From the NCBI GenBank assembly GCA_024231905.1, contig JAAEQC010000143.1, positions 1-64,000 of the forward strand: a stretch of DNA of 64,000 bases. The letters are read 5' to 3'. The stretch comes from a bacterium. GTDB taxonomy: Bacteria > Krumholzibacteriota > Krumholzibacteriia > LZORAL124-64-63. A program made the position numbers and the translations under genes. The notes beneath the pieces were generated by a model, which was given only the letters and a program-made list of their open reading frames with translations, ran no database searches and was not told where the DNA came from. Shown one piece after another: positions 27,917-37,073 of the stretch; position 1 is the first letter of the stretch; every line of letters starts with the position of its first letter.

Positions 27917-29265
27917 GTCACAAGCACCGTGTCAGTCCCGGCGCGACCGATCGTGGCGACGTCGTGGACCTGCTGGTCACGAACATCGGCGAGCTGTGCA
28001 CGATCCACGACCCGGACCTGGACGAGTCCGTGCCGCGGCGGCGGGAGGATCTGGGCGCCTTGAACGCCATCGCCGGCGCCGCCTTGGCCGTGGGCGACGG
28101 CAAGGTCGTGGCCTGGGGGGAGGAGGAGGCCCTGGTACGCGAATTATGGGGCGAAACGGGATTGAATCCCGCCGTGGAGACGGTGGACGCCGGCGGAGCC
28201 TGTGTGGTTCCCGGCTACGTGGATCCTCATACCCATGCGATCTTCGGCCGCACCCGGCAGGATGAGTACGAGCGGCGCATCCGGGGCGAGTCCTACCTGG
28301 AGATCGCGGCTGCCGGCGGCGGCATCCAGTCCTCGGTGAAGGACCTGCGCCAGCGTTCGGAGCAGGAACTGGTGGACCTGGCGGTGCCGCGCCTGCGGGA
28401 GATGCTGCGCCACGGCACGACCACCGTCGAGATCAAGAGCGGCTACGGACTCGACCTGGACTGGGAGCTCATGATGCTGCGCGCGGCGGGGGCCGCGGCC
28501 CGGGAGGCCGGCATCGGACTCGTGCGAACCTGCCTGGCCGCCCACGAAATTCCGCCCGAGTACCGTGGCGACCGCGAGAAGTACCTCGACATCATCTGCC
28601 GGGAGATCCTGCCCCGGGTCGCGGCGGAGCAGCTGGCCGACCGGGTCGACGTGTTCTGCGAGCCCAGCGTCTTCACCCTGGCGGAATCGGAGCGGATCCT
28701 CGCCGAGGCGTCGGGCCTCGCCCTGGGCGGCACGATCCACGCCGACGAGCTGGAACCCTACGGCGGCGCGATCCTGGCCGATAGGCTCGGCGCCGAATCG
28801 GCCGACCACCTCATCGAGATCGACGACGCGGGCATCGCGGCCCTGGCCGACTCCCGCACGGTGGCGGTTCTTCTCCCAGGCACGGTCTTCACCCTGGGGC
28901 TGGACCATTACGCCCCGGCGCGGAAGATGATCGACGCCGGTTGCGCCCTGGCCCTGGCCACGGACTTCAATCCGGGTAGCTGCCCGATTCTCTCGGTGCC
29001 CCTGATCCAGGCCATCGCCTGCACCCAGATGCGTCTGACCCCGGCGGAAGCCCTGGTGGCGTCCACCCGGAACCCTGCTTTCGCCCTGGATATGGCCCAC
29101 GCGGTGGGCTCCCTGGCGCCCCACCAGACCGCCGATTTCCTCATTCTCGACGGTGACGACCACCGGTTGGTTCCCTACCGTGCGGGACACAATCCGGTAC
29201 GGGCGGTATTCTCGGGCGGCAAGAAGGTTTTTTCTCAATCGTCGCGCCCTTTGAACGATGTATGA
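27913..29265 (+). CDS. hutI: Imidazolonepropionase
   Basis: HutI hydrolyses 4-imidazolone-5-propanoate to N-formimino-glutamate in histidine degradation. The 450-residue protein from the ATG at 27913 is an amidohydrolase-fold enzyme of slightly more than the usual length (~410). The metal site is DPHTHAIF, with further ligands expected from the conserved His in CLAAHEIP and GTIHADEL and the Asp in ATDFNPGS. Family blocks FGRTRQDEYERRIRGESY and EIKSGYGL bind substrate. It overlaps the helicase stop by four bases (ATGA) and has GGAGGATCC upstream. No hutH, hutU or hutG is present, so the pathway context is missing here; the assignment rests on sequence alone. Confidence 0.95.
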
Positions 29266-29349
29266 ACGGTAGCCCGGAACCGGAGCCCTGCGACGCGAGG
29301 TCGTGAACCGGTTCTTGGCGCCAAGCATCGCAGCAACGGGGGTCGCTCC

Positions 29350-30969
29350 TTGTCGAAGCTCAGTCAACTCAAGAAGGACGCCTACCAGGCCGGCAAGAAG
29401 CGGAACTGGGATGAGGCGGTCTCCCTGTACGAGCGCATCCTCGAACAGGATAAAAACAACCCGACCGTCATCAACGAACTCGGTGACCTCTGCCTCAAGG
29501 CGGGCAAGACTCCCCAGGCCGTGCGCTATTTCCTGAGCGCCGCCGCCAAGTACCGCCAGACCGGTTTGCTGAACAACGCCGTCGCCATCTACAAGAAGAT
29601 CCTCCGCTACGAGGGCGCGAACCTGAACGCCCACTGGTACCTGGCCGAGACCCGCGCCTCCCAGGGGCTCCTGGTCGAAGGCGAGAACCACGGTCTGCAC
29701 TTCCTGGAGCACTCCCGGAACCTGACTGCGGACATCAAGGAGATCTTCCTCAAACGCTGCCTGCAGCTCTTCGAACTGTATCCCCAGAGCCAGCCCATTC
29801 TTGAACGCCTGGTCCAGGTCTTCCGCACCTGGGATCTGAATCTGGAAGCGGCGCGGGCGGGGTGCCTGCTGGCTTGTGGCCAGTGGGACGCGGGCGAACA
29901 GGATGCGGCCCGCTCCGAGGTGGAAACCCTGCACGAACGCGTGCCCGAGCTTGCCAACTACCCCGAGTGGACCCAGTGGCAGCAGCGCGTCAATCCCGAC
30001 GGTGGCTCGTCCGGATCCTATTCGGACTTCGGAGCCGTCGACCTGGCCGGGCAGAGTCCGGCTGCCGAGGAGACGCCGAAACCCCCGGCCGCCGCCCCGG
30101 ATCAGGAAACCAACGCTACGTCCCCGGCCACGGACGGGCCAAGCCGCACCGCGACCCCGGCGGCCGAACCCGCGCCGTCGGCCGGGGACGAACCACTTGC
30201 CGACGAGCCGGCGCCCGCTGCGGAGAAGCCCGCAGTCGAAGAACCGGTAATCGAGAAGCCTGCCGCGGAGGCGCCCACCGCCGCGACCCCGGCCCAGGAC
30301 GGCGAAGGCTGCATCAGCATTGACGCCGACGGTGACGCGGATCTCAACGAACTGCTGGGCGCGGCCGTGGCCGGTGTGGAGCAGGCCACCGAGACGGAGG
30401 CCCCCGAAAACATCGAGGCCGATCCCTTCGCGGCGGCCCCGGCGGAACCGGAGGCTCCGGCAGACGACGACGCGCCGGTGGATCTGCTGGCGGAGATCCT
30501 GGCCGACGACTCGAACCTGCTCGAGGGCGGGGCCGAGTCCCAGATGGCTTCCATCACCCGCGAGATCGGCTCCCAGCTCGGCGGCGACGGCGACGAGGCC
30601 GATCCCTCGGGCCTGTACGACCAGGGCACCGTCTACCTGGAGATGGGCATGTATGACGAGGCCTGCGCGGCCTTCTCCAGCGCGGCCGCCAGCGGAGACC
30701 AGAGCGTGGTCCTCAGGGCCCGCGAGATGTGGGCCGAGACCCTCCAGCGATCCAACCGCGTGGACGAGGCTGTCACCATCCTGCGTGACGGCCTGGTGGG
30801 CATGACGCCGGGCGCCCCGGAGCACCTGGGCATGCTCTACAATCTGGGCAAGACCTGCGCCAAGGCCGGCCGGAACGACGAGGCCGCCGAGGTCTTCGGT
30901 GGAATCGTCGAGTTCGACGAGAACTACCTGGACGTCCGCGACCTCATGTCGGCCTTGTCCACGGCCTGA
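29350..30969 (+). CDS. TPR-repeat protein with acidic Pro/Ala-rich linker
   Basis: 539 residues from a TTG start with a GGGGGT site. There is no signal peptide, so it is probably cytoplasmic. The N-terminal ~200 residues are tetratricopeptide repeats (RNWDEAVSLYERILEQDKNNP, then KTPQAVRYFLSAAAKYRQTG). Residues about 235-395 form a long disordered linker rich in Pro, Ala, Glu and Asp. A second TPR block closes the protein (GLYDQGTVYLEMGMYDEACAAF; NRVDEAVTILRDGL; GRNDEAAEVFGGIV). Two TPR ends joined by a flexible acidic linker suggest a scaffold that brings two partners together. The 84-base gap upstream contains a perfect 12-base palindrome (CTTGGCGCCAAG, 29314-29325). Function unknown. Confidence 0.8.
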   Translation: MSKLSQLKKDAYQAGKKRNWDEAVSLYERILEQDKNNPTVINELGDLCLKAGKTPQAVRYFLSAAAKYRQTGLLNNAVAIYKKILRYEGANLNAHWYLAETRASQGLLVEGENHGLHFLEHSRNLTADIKEIFLKRCLQLFELYPQSQPILERLVQVFRTWDLNLEAARAGCLLACGQWDAGEQDAARSEVETLHERVPELANYPEWTQWQQRVNPDGGSSGSYSDFGAVDLAGQSPAAEETPKPPAAAPDQETNATSPATDGPSRTATPAAEPAPSAGDEPLADEPAPAAEKPAVEEPVIEKPAAEAPTAATPAQDGEGCISIDADGDADLNELLGAAVAGVEQATETEAPENIEADPFAAAPAEPEAPADDDAPVDLLAEILADDSNLLEGGAESQMASITREIGSQLGGDGDEADPSGLYDQGTVYLEMGMYDEACAAFSSAAASGDQSVVLRAREMWAETLQRSNRVDEAVTILRDGLVGMTPGAPEHLGMLYNLGKTCAKAGRNDEAAEVFGGIVEFDENYLDVRDLMSALSTA

Positions 30970-30992
30970 CACCTCCTGCGCGAACCCGCTTC

Positions 30993-31021
30993 GGACCCCA
31001 GGGGAACCTTGCCTGGGGTCC
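30993..31021 (+). terminator. Strong hairpin after the TPR gene
   Basis: GGACCCCAGG (30993-31002) pairs perfectly with CCTGGGGTCC (31012-31021) around a nine-base loop. It lies 24 bases after the TPR-gene stop. There is no T-tract after it, so it may be a weak terminator or an RNA-processing element. Its right arm overlaps the -35 region of the promoter predicted at 31009-31037. Confidence 0.55.
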
Positions 31022-31037
31022 ACCGTTCACCTAAGAT
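31009..31037 (+). promoter_or_regulatory. Predicted promoter giving a leaderless mRNA for the ECF-S/barrel fusion
   Basis: TTGCCT (31009-31014) and TAAGAT (31032-31037) are spaced by 17 bases. The usual start point, seven bases after the -10, would be the A of the ATG at 31044. No ribosome-binding sequence precedes that ATG, which agrees with a leaderless transcript. The element overlaps the right arm of the upstream hairpin. Confidence 0.45.
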
Positions 31038-31043
31038 GCCGCC

Positions 31044-33638
31044 ATGACCGCACCGCGTCAGCCAACGGCCAACCGTTCGGTCCGGCAGCCCGTCCTGCTG
31101 GGCCTTTTTGCTGGTGTGGCGGTCGGCGTCGGATATCTCCTGGCCGGGGTCCCCAATGTGGAGCTCATGACGCTGGTCATCATGCTGGCCGGAGCGACCC
31201 TGGGTGCGGTCCGGGGCGCGGCGGTGGGCGTGGTGGCGGAAGCGATTTTTTCGGTGGGATCGCCCTACGGCATGGCGGCCCCGCCGTTGCTGGCGGCCCA
31301 GTTGGCGGGCATGGCTCTGGCCGGGGTGACCGGGGCGGCGTTGCGGATGGCGCTGGAACGGACCGACCGGCCGGCGCGCAGGACCGTGACGGCAGGGGTC
31401 GTGGGAGCGTCGACGGCGCTGGTCTTCGATCTCCTGACCAACGTCGGCAGCATCATCGGTTATGAACTCGACCCGCGTTTGGTCTTCGGAGGCGCCTTGG
31501 GCTTCAACCTCATCCACATGGCTTCAGTGGCCACGGCCACGGCGGCGGTCTTCCCGGCGCTGGCGCCGCGGCTCAGGCTGTTGGTGCGCAGTTCCCTGGT
31601 GGGTCGGACGGCGCCGCTGGTGCTGGCGATCCTGCTGACCGGCGGCGTGGCCGAGTCCCGGGCCCAGGGCGCGCCGACCGACTCCACGGGTCTGGCCCTT
31701 CCCGATACTGCCACGACGACGGCGGCCACGCAGCCGACGAGCGACCTGCCCGCGCCCACCGAAGGCCCGGGGGTCGAACTGGGCTGGGAGCGCCCTCTCT
31801 GGCAGCCCTTCGCCTGGGACATCCTCGATTGGTACGACTGGTATTCGCCCTACCTGGCCGTGCGCGAAGCGGGCCTGGGCGGCGCGGCCGTGGTCTTCGG
31901 GGAAGCCGGGACTTCGCCGGCGCCCCTGGTCACCGTGGACGACGTGCCCTGGGGTACGGGTCACGCCCTGGTGGACGATCCCTGGCTCGCTCCCATCCAG
32001 GGCCTGGAGGTGGGAACCGACGGCTGGTTCACCGACGGCCTGGGGGGCACCGCCGGCCGGCTGAACCTGCGTACGGCGGACCCGGATCCGGAGAAGGCCG
32101 TTTCCGAATACCGCGGCGTCAAGGGCCGCCACGAGTCCTACATGCGGGGCATCCACGTGCTGACGCCCCGAGCCGATTGGCGGGCTTCGCTCTCCTTCGA
32201 CGAGGTCATCGACAAAGAAGCCTGGAACTACACGGACGTGTCCGACGAGGAGCGTTACCTGCTCGTGGATCCGGAGTTCCCCGGACACGGCAAAGTGCGC
32301 CAGAGCCGGACGCGCATCTCCCGGCTGCTGGACGACGAGACGGGACTCGACCTGGAGATATCCAACGGCCGGGTCACCCGCGACGACGCTCCGGCCTGGG
32401 GCGCTCTGCACCGCGAGGTCTGGGACACGGGTCTCGCGGCCACGGCCTACGGCCGGCGGGCGGGCCTACGCTGGCGAACGATCCTGCACTGGCGCGACCG
32501 GGACGTCCAGTGGGGTGCACGGCCCACCGGCGTCGACTCCACCGAAAACCACCGAAAACTGGGCTCTTCCCGGGAGGGCCTGATCCTCTCGTTACGGCAG
32601 GCGCAATCGGCGCCTCCGGCACTGCCGGACTCGGCGGCCGGCGACAGCACCGTTCCGCCGGCTCCGTTCGCGGTCGAGGGCCCGGGCGGTCTCTTCCTGA
32701 ACCTGACCGTCCACAACTGGCGGGTCGTCGATACGGTGGACATCCTGGCCACCTTGCGGCCCGAGGTGGGCGAAACCTCCGGCCACGGCCAGACCGCTAC
32801 CCTGGATCTGGGAGACGAGCTCACCCTGGGTCCGGTCCGCGTGGAAGCCGCCCTGGGCGGCCGCTGGGACGATCACGCCGGCGTAGCCCCCGCCGGACGT
32901 CTGGCTGTGGGGGGCGCCGGCGACCGGCCCGCCTGGCGCCTGGAAATCGCGCGTGACGGCCGCGGTCCCCGCAGTGACGAACTGTTGACGCTCGTGGACC
33001 GGCCGGCGGGTCTGGGCGACACCGCCACCATGCTCCCCAATCCCGATCTGGGCCACGAAAACACCTTACGCGCGGGCCTGGCGGTGAATCTGGCCCTCCT
33101 GGGCAACGAACTTGCACTGAACGCGGGCGCCCGCCGCCTCCGCGACGGCATCGCCTGGGAGCCCCTGCCCGGCGAGGATTTCGTGGGCCGGTGGGAGAAC
33201 GGCCTGGAGATGGACAGCGTGCGCCTGACCGCGCGCCTGGCCCGCCAGGGCCGTTTCCTGGGCTGGGGACGGATCATGCTGGAGGGCACGTGGCGGGCGT
33301 TCGACGAAAAGATGGGCCAGGCGCCAAGCCTACCACCCAAGGACACGTACCGACTCCACCTCATGTGGGAGAACCACTTCTTCCAGGAGGACGGGGTCCT
33401 GCAGCTGGGCCTGATCAGCACCCGGCGGGGGGCCATGGACGATCCCTGGGACATCACGCGCACGACCCATCTGCCGGCCCGAACGGTCCACGACCTTCTG
33501 GTGGGATTCCGGCTGGTGGGGGTGGAACTCTCCCTGGCCTTCCGCAACCTCCAGGGCGAGCGCGTCCCCCTGAGCTACCTGACCAACAGCAGCGGACAGG
33601 AAGTGGACATGCGCCTGCGCTGGGCCTTCCGCTACTAG
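31044..33638 (+). CDS. Fusion: ECF transporter S-component domain + TonB-receptor-like outer-membrane barrel
   Basis: One 864-residue frame with two modules that normally sit in different membranes. Residues ~18-170 are six hydrophobic helices resembling an ECF-transporter S component (PNVELMTLVIMLAGATLG, then FSVGSPYGMAAPPLLAAQL), the substrate-binding part of vitamin importers. An Arg-rich stretch (RLRLLVRSSLVGR) and a signal-peptide-like helix follow, with a signal-peptidase-I-type site after A207 (AESRA/QGAP). After a Thr/Pro linker, residues ~250-345 resemble a degenerate TonB-receptor plug (PLVTVDDVPWGTG; GTAGRLNLRTAD), then alternating barrel strands to the end LRWAFRY. The S component would finish with its C-terminus in the cytoplasm, so the extra helix could export the barrel. 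Substrate unknown. No stop or frameshift separates the parts. Confidence 0.75.
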   Translation: MTAPRQPTANRSVRQPVLLGLFAGVAVGVGYLLAGVPNVELMTLVIMLAGATLGAVRGAAVGVVAEAIFSVGSPYGMAAPPLLAAQLAGMALAGVTGAALRMALERTDRPARRTVTAGVVGASTALVFDLLTNVGSIIGYELDPRLVFGGALGFNLIHMASVATATAAVFPALAPRLRLLVRSSLVGRTAPLVLAILLTGGVAESRAQGAPTDSTGLALPDTATTTAATQPTSDLPAPTEGPGVELGWERPLWQPFAWDILDWYDWYSPYLAVREAGLGGAAVVFGEAGTSPAPLVTVDDVPWGTGHALVDDPWLAPIQGLEVGTDGWFTDGLGGTAGRLNLRTADPDPEKAVSEYRGVKGRHESYMRGIHVLTPRADWRASLSFDEVIDKEAWNYTDVSDEERYLLVDPEFPGHGKVRQSRTRISRLLDDETGLDLEISNGRVTRDDAPAWGALHREVWDTGLAATAYGRRAGLRWRTILHWRDRDVQWGARPTGVDSTENHRKLGSSREGLILSLRQAQSAPPALPDSAAGDSTVPPAPFAVEGPGGLFLNLTVHNWRVVDTVDILATLRPEVGETSGHGQTATLDLGDELTLGPVRVEAALGGRWDDHAGVAPAGRLAVGGAGDRPAWRLEIARDGRGPRSDELLTLVDRPAGLGDTATMLPNPDLGHENTLRAGLAVNLALLGNELALNAGARRLRDGIAWEPLPGEDFVGRWENGLEMDSVRLTARLARQGRFLGWGRIMLEGTWRAFDEKMGQAPSLPPKDTYRLHLMWENHFFQEDGVLQLGLISTRRGAMDDPWDITRTTHLPARTVHDLLVGFRLVGVELSLAFRNLQGERVPLSYLTNSSGQEVDMRLRWAFRY

Positions 33639-33658
33639 ATCGCTCCCGCCGCCGCCGG

Positions 33659-34090
33659 TTGCCGCTCCTGTCGACCCGCCAGCGCCTGGGTATTCTCCTG
33701 GCCTTCCTGGTGGTCCTGGGCGGCCGCGCCGTGCGCCACTATCTGTTGCTGGGGCCGGAAGGCCACTGGCGCGAGGAACTGTGGCTCGACGCGGTACTGG
33801 CTGCCGCCGAACCTCCGGCGCCCCCGCCGGCACCCCCGCCCAAGCCGCAGCTCACCACGCCTTTACCGGTGAACACCTGTTCTGTGGACAGCCTGACCAT
33901 GTTGCCGGGGGTGGGACCGGTGCTCGCCGGGCGCATGGCCGCCGCCCGGACCGCCGCCGGACCTTTCCGGGACGCGGCCGACCTGCAAAGGGTCAAGGGA
34001 ATCGGACCCGCGCTCAGCGCCCGCCTGGGCCCCCTGGTGTTGTTCACCGGGACCGCCAGCGTTGATTCCATCCCCTCCGGCGACCGCTAG
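33659..34090 (+). CDS. ComEA-like helix-hairpin-helix protein, membrane-anchored
   Basis: About 143 residues from a TTG at 33659; the start is uncertain because no good ribosome site is visible and the frame stays open upstream inside the previous gene. The N-terminus has one hydrophobic helix (LGILLAFLVVLGG), then a Pro-rich spacer (PPAPPPAPPPKP). The C-terminal ~65 residues hold two helix-hairpin-helix motifs: LTMLPGVGPVLAGRMAAAR and LQRVKGIGPALSARLGPLV. This is the layout of ComEA, the periplasmic DNA receptor of natural transformation, which works with type IV pili. A pilus cluster follows directly and dprA lies further downstream, which supports that reading. Confidence 0.75.
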   Translation: MPLLSTRQRLGILLAFLVVLGGRAVRHYLLLGPEGHWREELWLDAVLAAAEPPAPPPAPPPKPQLTTPLPVNTCSVDSLTMLPGVGPVLAGRMAAARTAAGPFRDAADLQRVKGIGPALSARLGPLVLFTGTASVDSIPSGDR

Positions 34091-34202
34091 GGGCAAAAAC
34101 GGTGTCCGGCGCGGGGTTTCTGCGCCGTGGTCCCGCCACTCCGTTGCGCAATCAGGGTTAAAGTCGCCGCCCTCCGGTCCGAACAAACACGGGAAGTACC
34201 CG

Positions 34203-34238
34203 GGTCCTGGAACGCGGCGCCAACCGCGCTCCCGGACC
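34203..34238 (+). other. Possible RNA hairpin in the pilB leader
   Basis: GGTCC (34203-34207) pairs with GGACC (34234-34238), enclosing an inner CGCGG (34213-34217) / CCGCG (34224-34228) stem with a six-base loop. It lies 40 bases before pilB in the 188-base gap after the HhH gene. A second dyad, CGGCGC/GCGCCG, occurs near 34103-34125. I found no match to known riboswitch cores. In GC-rich DNA such pairings can arise by chance. Confidence 0.25.
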
Positions 34239-34278
34239 ATGCTCGAACGCCCCAACTGCGTAAAGCGGGGACCACCGT

Positions 34279-35973
<1,695 letters not shown>

Positions 35974-35996
35974 CGTTGCGCGAAAGGGAGTGACCT

Positions 35997-37073
35997 GTGG
36001 CAGGAATGAGAGAACTGCTCGAGGAGATGGTCGGCAAGGGAGCCAGTGACCTCCATCTGGCTGCGGGCCTGCCGCCCCAGTTCCGGGTGGACGGCGAGAT
36101 AGAGACCACCGATTTCCCGGTGCTGACCGGCGAAGACACCTTGAAGCTCGCCTACTCCATTCTCAACGAGGAGCAGCGCAAGCGCTACGAGAACGAGAAG
36201 GAACTGGACCTGAGCTTCGGCGTCCAGGGCATCAGCCGTTTCCGTGCCAACTGCTTCCAGCAGCGCGGTGTCACGAGCATGGCCATCCGCCAGATTCCCT
36301 ACGAGATCCAAACCTTCGAGCAGCTCGGCCTGCCGACGGTGTGCCGCCAGCTCATCCAGAAGAACCAGGGCCTGGTGCTCGTCACCGGTCCTACGGGCAG
36401 TGGCAAGTCCACGACCCTGGCCACCATGGTCGACACCCTGAACTCGACGCGCAAGGGCCACATCATCACCATCGAGGACCCTATCGAGTTCGTGCACAAC
36501 CACAAGCAGAGCATCGTGAACCAGCGCGAGGTGAACAGCGACACCGAGAGCTTCACCAAGGCGCTGAAGTACGTACTGCGCCAGGATCCGGACGTGATCC
36601 TCATCGGTGAGATGCGCGACCGGGAGACCATCTCCGCGGCGCTGACCATCGCCGAGACGGGCCACCTGGCCCTGGCCACGCTGCATACGAACAGTACGTT
36701 CGAGTCCATCAACCGGATCATCGACGTCTTTCCGCCCGAGCAGCAGAACCAGGTGCGCAGTCAGCTCTCGTTCTCGCTCAGCGGCGTGATAACCCAGCAG
36801 CTCATCCCTCGCCAACGGGGCACGGGACGGGCGCTGACCCTGGAGATCATGGTCTGCACGCCCGGTATCAAGGCCATGATCCGCGACGACAAGGTCCATC
36901 AGATCTACGGTCTCATGCAGGCGGGACAGAAGTACGGCATGCAGACCATGAACCAGTCCCTGCATCACGCGGTCATGAACAAGTGGATATCCATGGAACA
37001 GGCCCTGGGCCGCAGCCCGGACGTGGCCGAACTCCAGCAGATGGTCGGCGAGCCTCTCGGCTCGACGGTGTGA
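35997..37073 (+). CDS. pilT: Type IV pilus retraction ATPase PilT
   Basis: PilT drives pilus depolymerisation and twitching. 358 residues from a GTG with AAGGGAG six bases upstream; an ATG at 36006 would lose three residues. The start ELLEEMVGKGASDLHLAAGLPP is characteristic. Walker A GPTGSGKST has K137, matching the usual K136. The Asp box (EDPIEFVHNHKQSIVNQRE), Walker B (DVILIGEMRDRETI) and His box (ATLHTNSTFESINRIIDVF) are intact, as is the C-terminal AIRE-like helix region. It lies 23 bases after pilB. Confidence 0.96.
   Translation: MAGMRELLEEMVGKGASDLHLAAGLPPQFRVDGEIETTDFPVLTGEDTLKLAYSILNEEQRKRYENEKELDLSFGVQGISRFRANCFQQRGVTSMAIRQIPYEIQTFEQLGLPTVCRQLIQKNQGLVLVTGPTGSGKSTTLATMVDTLNSTRKGHIITIEDPIEFVHNHKQSIVNQREVNSDTESFTKALKYVLRQDPDVILIGEMRDRETISAALTIAETGHLALATLHTNSTFESINRIIDVFPPEQQNQVRSQLSFSLSGVITQQLIPRQRGTGRALTLEIMVCTPGIKAMIRDDKVHQIYGLMQAGQKYGMQTMNQSLHHAVMNKWISMEQALGRSPDVAELQQMVGEPLGSTV

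Follow-up and report, generated by a model that had tools for sequence, protein, structure and literature searches.

An ECF S component joined in one reading frame to a predicted TonB-receptor-type barrel in Krumholzibacteriia

The window analysed here, a 64,000-nucleotide stretch of DNA from a draft Krumholzibacteriia genome (contig JAAEQC010000143.1), contains on its forward strand an open reading frame (ORF) at 31044..33638 that starts with ATG and runs through 864 codons to its stop codon without an internal stop. The encoded chain opens with a predicted ECF-type S component of six membrane helices (residues 1-182, 31044..31589), which is followed by an internal signal-peptide-like segment consisting of a basic stretch, a hydrophobic helix and a terminal S-R-A (residues 183-207, 31590..31664) and by a predicted signal peptidase I site at A207/Q208 (31662..31667). 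A variable linker (31665..31784), containing a Ton-box-like D-S-T-G-L-A at approximately 31680-31697, then leads to a short plug-like domain (31785..32075) and to a predicted outer-membrane β-barrel of approximately 22 strands with a final Tyr (32100..33635). The conclusion that this ORF is an in-frame fusion, in which a signal-peptide-like helix links residues 1-182, an ECF S component, with a barrel of the TonB-receptor type (residues ~248-864), holds, with both folds assigned by prediction. The locus is an odd setting for a vitamin transporter: within window positions 28021-37073, the ORF is flanked by hutI and a gene for a TPR protein on one side and by genes for a helix-hairpin-helix (ComEA-like) protein and pilB-/pilT-type ATPases on the other, and sister families keep much of this gene order. 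An Rfam search returned no riboswitch match at the window, at three sister loci or at 14 permease loci.

The N-terminal part had been proposed, from the sequence of this one locus, to be a six-helix S component, and a profile search had been suggested as a check. Residues 12-166 matched nearly the full PF07155 profile (ECF-type S component), with an E-value of 1.9e-4 for the N-terminal piece and a score below the gathering score, and a stand-alone sister S component clears the PF12822 cut-off. Weak for the single sequence, the assignment becomes firm through its relatives: the model of the S part, built from an alignment of 20 of them, reached a pLDDT of 91.7, and 10 of its first 11 fold matches in the PDB were ECF S components, most at a probability of 1.00, with target TM-scores of up to 0.69 and Foldseek E-values that were all above 0.001. 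These fold matches name PanT, RibU (TmRibU), ThiT and FolT, and not CbrT. By sequence, the best PDB match of the S profile over its whole length was 6fnp_A (E 5.6e-6), the S component of the vitamin B12 transporter ECF-CbrT from Lactobacillus delbrueckii (6FNP; PMC5997447).

For the C-terminal half, a Pfam search of the barrel part alone (residues ~248-864, plug included) returned no match, and the barrel profile (A5) had no match by sequence in the PDB, so that a fold model was needed. The resulting model (pLDDT 84.8, pTM 0.86) has approximately 22 strands and a short plug-like region in a TonB-receptor fold. Its first PDB matches in Foldseek were the TonB-dependent receptors PfeA (1.4e-23) and BtuB (2.4e-23), with BtuB entries having the highest target TM-scores among the matches listed, mostly 0.74-0.77. 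Profile comparison found the fused barrel to be homologous to the receptors of sister families (probability 98.7); among six such receptors compared with Pfam, five score over the Plug cut-off and the remaining one over the barrel cut-off. Structure prediction, which had been advised for both halves, therefore gave an S-component fold and a TonB-receptor fold, and the plug-like domain and long barrel with an aromatic end that had been read from the sequence agree with the model and with the last residue, Tyr864. The profile check proposed for the barrel had a divided outcome, failing against Pfam with the barrel alone and succeeding as a profile match to the sister receptors with their Plug domain.

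We found the S part in 28 of 38 genomes of the same Krumholzibacteriia family (f1), and in 20 of the 28, representing 20 species, it lies within an open frame of at least 828 amino acids (aa); in the remaining genomes, for which not every contig end was examined, the frame is cut by contig ends or falls on short contigs. Chance is excluded by the recurrence of the same single frame in many species and genera at 34-52% identity, and a public record (L031) encodes a full-length relative that is 47% identical. Ten loci read in other families of the phylum have the S gene and the receptor gene as separate neighbours at the same locus; the stand-alone S gene, mostly of approximately 180-215 aa, comes first and that of the TonB-type receptor second. 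The fusion is accordingly kept in family f1, and the two genes are separate at these loci of other families; had the homologues always been two genes, this would have told against the original prediction. The fused S parts form one clade (support 100/99), and the fused barrels split from those barrels of the family that lack an S part (support 100/100). Judged from these sequences, a single fusion of a conserved neighbouring gene pair in family f1 would be the simplest account of the origin of the ORF. In another genome (G056, L046:6561-6570), the S and receptor genes share one frame and are parted by a single TGA, then GTG, an arrangement that is one step from fusion. Five S-less members of family f1 were seen with the receptor as a stand-alone gene. 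At four loci of this family (L033, L034, L040 and L041), the receptor stands alone with its own signal peptide, no S part, no EcfT detected and a BtuC-type permease, matched only in part in G010 and G020.

At the junction, the orthologues have, after helix 6, a basic stretch of the PLxGR type, then a hydrophobic helix and finally a site resembling those of signal peptidase, in most cases A-X-A|Q. In the ORF of the window, these correspond to residues 174-188, to residues ~186-205 and to an S-R-A|Q site after residue 207; the Arg-rich stretch, signal-peptide-like helix and SRA/Q site described in the original prediction are all present. With sites picked by eye on the alignment, the (-3,-1) rule holds in 21 of the 22 orthologues scored (L021 breaks it) and position +1 is Q, E or D in all 22; a 23rd orthologue (L028), in which no site is evident, was not scored. 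The Ala of the site (A207) is invariant in a 17-row alignment. This conserved putative signal peptidase I site upholds, across the orthologue family, the proposal of an internal signal peptide for export, and the even number of helices that precede the signal helix would orient it for export. The Ala/Pro-rich linker varies between 21 and 64 aa among orthologues and ends at a conserved WxRPLWxPF, which opens the receptor domain. A Ton-box-like motif occurs in 8-11 of 22 orthologues versus 0.3-2.1 in shuffles, for a pattern chosen after looking, and the plug part contains no canonical Ton box. The 120 codons that precede the barrel, taken from 23 genomes (2,760 codons in all), contain 0 stops in the fused frame, compared with 82 and 29 stops in the two alternative frames. 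The S part therefore has no stop of its own in any of these genomes, and each complete translation of it must enter the barrel.

The presence of the S part goes together with that of EcfT, which was detected in 36 of 39 genomes with the S part (S+) versus 3 of 18 genomes without it (S-; p 2.4e-8). The BtuC-type permease has the opposite distribution, 3 of 39 S+ versus 16 of 18 S- genomes (p 2.2e-9), the matches in G010 and G020 being partial, and is present in all but one of nine S-less members of family f1. At the level of genera, the p values are 2.8e-5 for EcfT and 1.1e-4 for the permease. These counts are phylogenetically dependent, reflecting within f1 largely one switch between two clades; both states are also present in families f3 and f4, and the counts exclude one genome (G007) with an S part truncated by its contig. 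The host gene for EcfT (L062:6087-6863, + strand; G000:C102:152086-152856) scores over the PF02361 cut-off, lies between asd and truA, unlinked to the fusion, and encodes a protein in which both coupling-helix motifs are degenerate. Its ecfT-truA order is shared with other genomes of the family and with G039. No EcfA match over the TIGR04520 or TIGR04521 cut-off was found in any genome tested, sisters included, and no dedicated adjacent EcfA pair was seen in the host. The host also encodes a metal ECF transporter of the CbiM/NikM type that has an ATPase of its own and lies next to a NikR-like gene (L071:2390-4763, - strand). The ATPase of this locus, encoded beside the CbiM-like gene, is the best EcfA-like match in the host and might serve the unlinked EcfT. 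TonB was found in 58 of 58 genomes.

Several observations bear on the substrate. The best PDB match of the unfused sister receptors is BtuB (E 1e-14, plug part). In one genome (G002), models for BtuF, a corrinoid ATPase and BtuC rank among the best matches of a neighbouring binding protein, ATPase and permease, respectively, and none of these matches reaches its equivalog cut-off. Among 13 genomes tested, the host being one, every genome has B12-binding domains and no CbiC was found, which is consistent with dependence on uptake. On the grounds of the best PDB matches, the co-occurrence with EcfT and the replacement by a BtuC-type system, vitamin B12 or corrinoids are the likely substrate.

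We therefore favour, at a probability of roughly 0.7, a reading in which a single mRNA is translated into a single polypeptide that signal peptidase I cuts into an S component and a BtuB-like receptor, most likely of a corrinoid route. The six-helix S component would insert first, with its C-terminus on the cytoplasmic side; the basic stretch and the hydrophobic helix behind it would then serve as an internal signal peptide, and the remaining chain would be exported through Sec. Signal peptidase I would cut after residue 207 (A207). The S component, retaining an extra C-terminal helix, would stay in the inner membrane and work with the unlinked EcfT, and the released chain, a TonB-dependent receptor resembling BtuB, would move to the outer membrane. 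The vitamin would pass the receptor and be taken on by the S component, both products being made in equal numbers. The sequences establish the conserved single frame, the homology of both halves to known families (with predicted folds), the conserved site and the co-occurrence pattern; from these and the models, we infer translation as one chain, cleavage, the substrate, the partnership with EcfT and the dependence on TonB. Several results weigh against this reading: no dedicated EcfA pair was found in the host, the EcfT motifs are degenerate, the fold matches of the S model do not point to CbrT, the locus gave no riboswitch match, the genome counts are phylogenetically dependent, the plug has neither a canonical Ton box nor a Pfam match, and the orthologues L021 and L028 depart from the site pattern.

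The alternative that deserves most attention keeps the polyprotein and its cut and changes the substrate to riboflavin, pantothenate, folate or a heme- or siderophore-like compound. The fold matches of the S model (PanT, TmRibU, ThiT and FolT) speak for it, as do the first fold match of the barrel, the enterobactin receptor PfeA, the modest sequence match to CbrT and the fact that FecCD-type permeases carry iron compounds and heme too; however, the sequence matches to CbrT and BtuB have separate sources, one in each half, and the replacement pattern with BtuC-type permeases and B12-binding domains without CbiC suit corrinoids better. We consider a non-corrinoid substrate unlikely, at perhaps one chance in five. 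Doubtful to a greater degree is the view that the barrel is made mostly from an internal start in the fused frame, with two initiations and a fused product that is minor or degraded. An in-frame GTG, TTG or ATG does occur near the junction in every genome, and sister families have two genes. Yet none of these codons is fixed in position, Shine-Dalgarno-like matches near the junction extend to at most 5 bases, and the S part is stopless in all genomes; a conserved start near 31581, which would have spoken against the original prediction, was ruled out by the varying positions of start codons there among orthologues.

It is very improbable that the chain stays uncut, as one tethered protein that spans both membranes or lies wholly in one. 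The single frame itself would allow this, but the putative cleavage site is conserved and the shortest linker has 21 residues, which when stretched measure at most approximately 8 nm, below the usual width of the periplasm. Such a linker is too short for the periplasm, and its size suggests that cutting would be needed if the barrel is to reach the outer membrane. An assembly or sequencing artefact joining two genes, conceivable for a draft genome in 236 contigs, is refuted by independent genomes of many genera, the public record included, that carry the same frame; no frameshift was found in the assembly, and the uninterrupted ORF and its orthologues bear out the claim that one frame without stops joins an S component to a TonB-receptor-type barrel.

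The nearest precedent for the processing step that we propose is FbcH, the cytochrome b/c1 precursor of Bradyrhizobium japonicum, a multi-pass protein with an in-frame internal signal peptide followed by an exported protein and cut after export. Both products of FbcH stay in the inner membrane, in one complex, whereas the second product of the fused ORF would be destined for another membrane. The halves themselves resemble known systems with clear differences. CbrT is a stand-alone S component that works with a full ECF module; the S part described here is fused to a receptor, and EcfT is the only component of such a module that was found. BtuB, to which the unfused sister receptors are closest by sequence in the PDB and which is an early fold match of the fused barrel, has the plug and barrel fold in common with the fused receptor; unlike it, BtuB has a gene to itself and a signal peptide of its own at the N-terminus, and the plug of the fused receptor is shorter and matched by no Pfam model. 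By description, a likeness also exists to BtuM, a solitary S-component-like B12 transporter of Gram-negative bacteria that is co-located with btuB and occurs in genomes having BtuB without BtuCDF (PMC6072759); unlike the fused S part, BtuM is encoded by a separate gene, and it is active without an ECF module.

Both parts of the ORF are thus of known kinds, and what appears to be new, as read from the sequence, is that a single frame unites them, with halves apparently destined for different membranes. The open-licence literature yielded no description of an S component fused to a TonB receptor, in agreement with the earlier remark that a protein of this plan was not known to have been described. 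Somewhat less firmly than the route itself, we think it probable that this is the first bacterial polyprotein to supply a vitamin route with both its inner-membrane carrier and its outer-membrane receptor, which signal peptidase I would separate and which would reach their own membranes in equal numbers. If true, this would provide a naturally occurring example of a single frame supplying two membranes. The fusion brings together candidates for a B12 carrier and a B12 receptor, a strong case of guilt by fusion in bacteria without a known inner-membrane B12 route. It opens to testing how a multi-pass membrane protein can bear an internal signal peptide that serves an outer-membrane barrel, and also whether Gram-negative bacteria without BtuCDF use ECF S components in B12 uptake.
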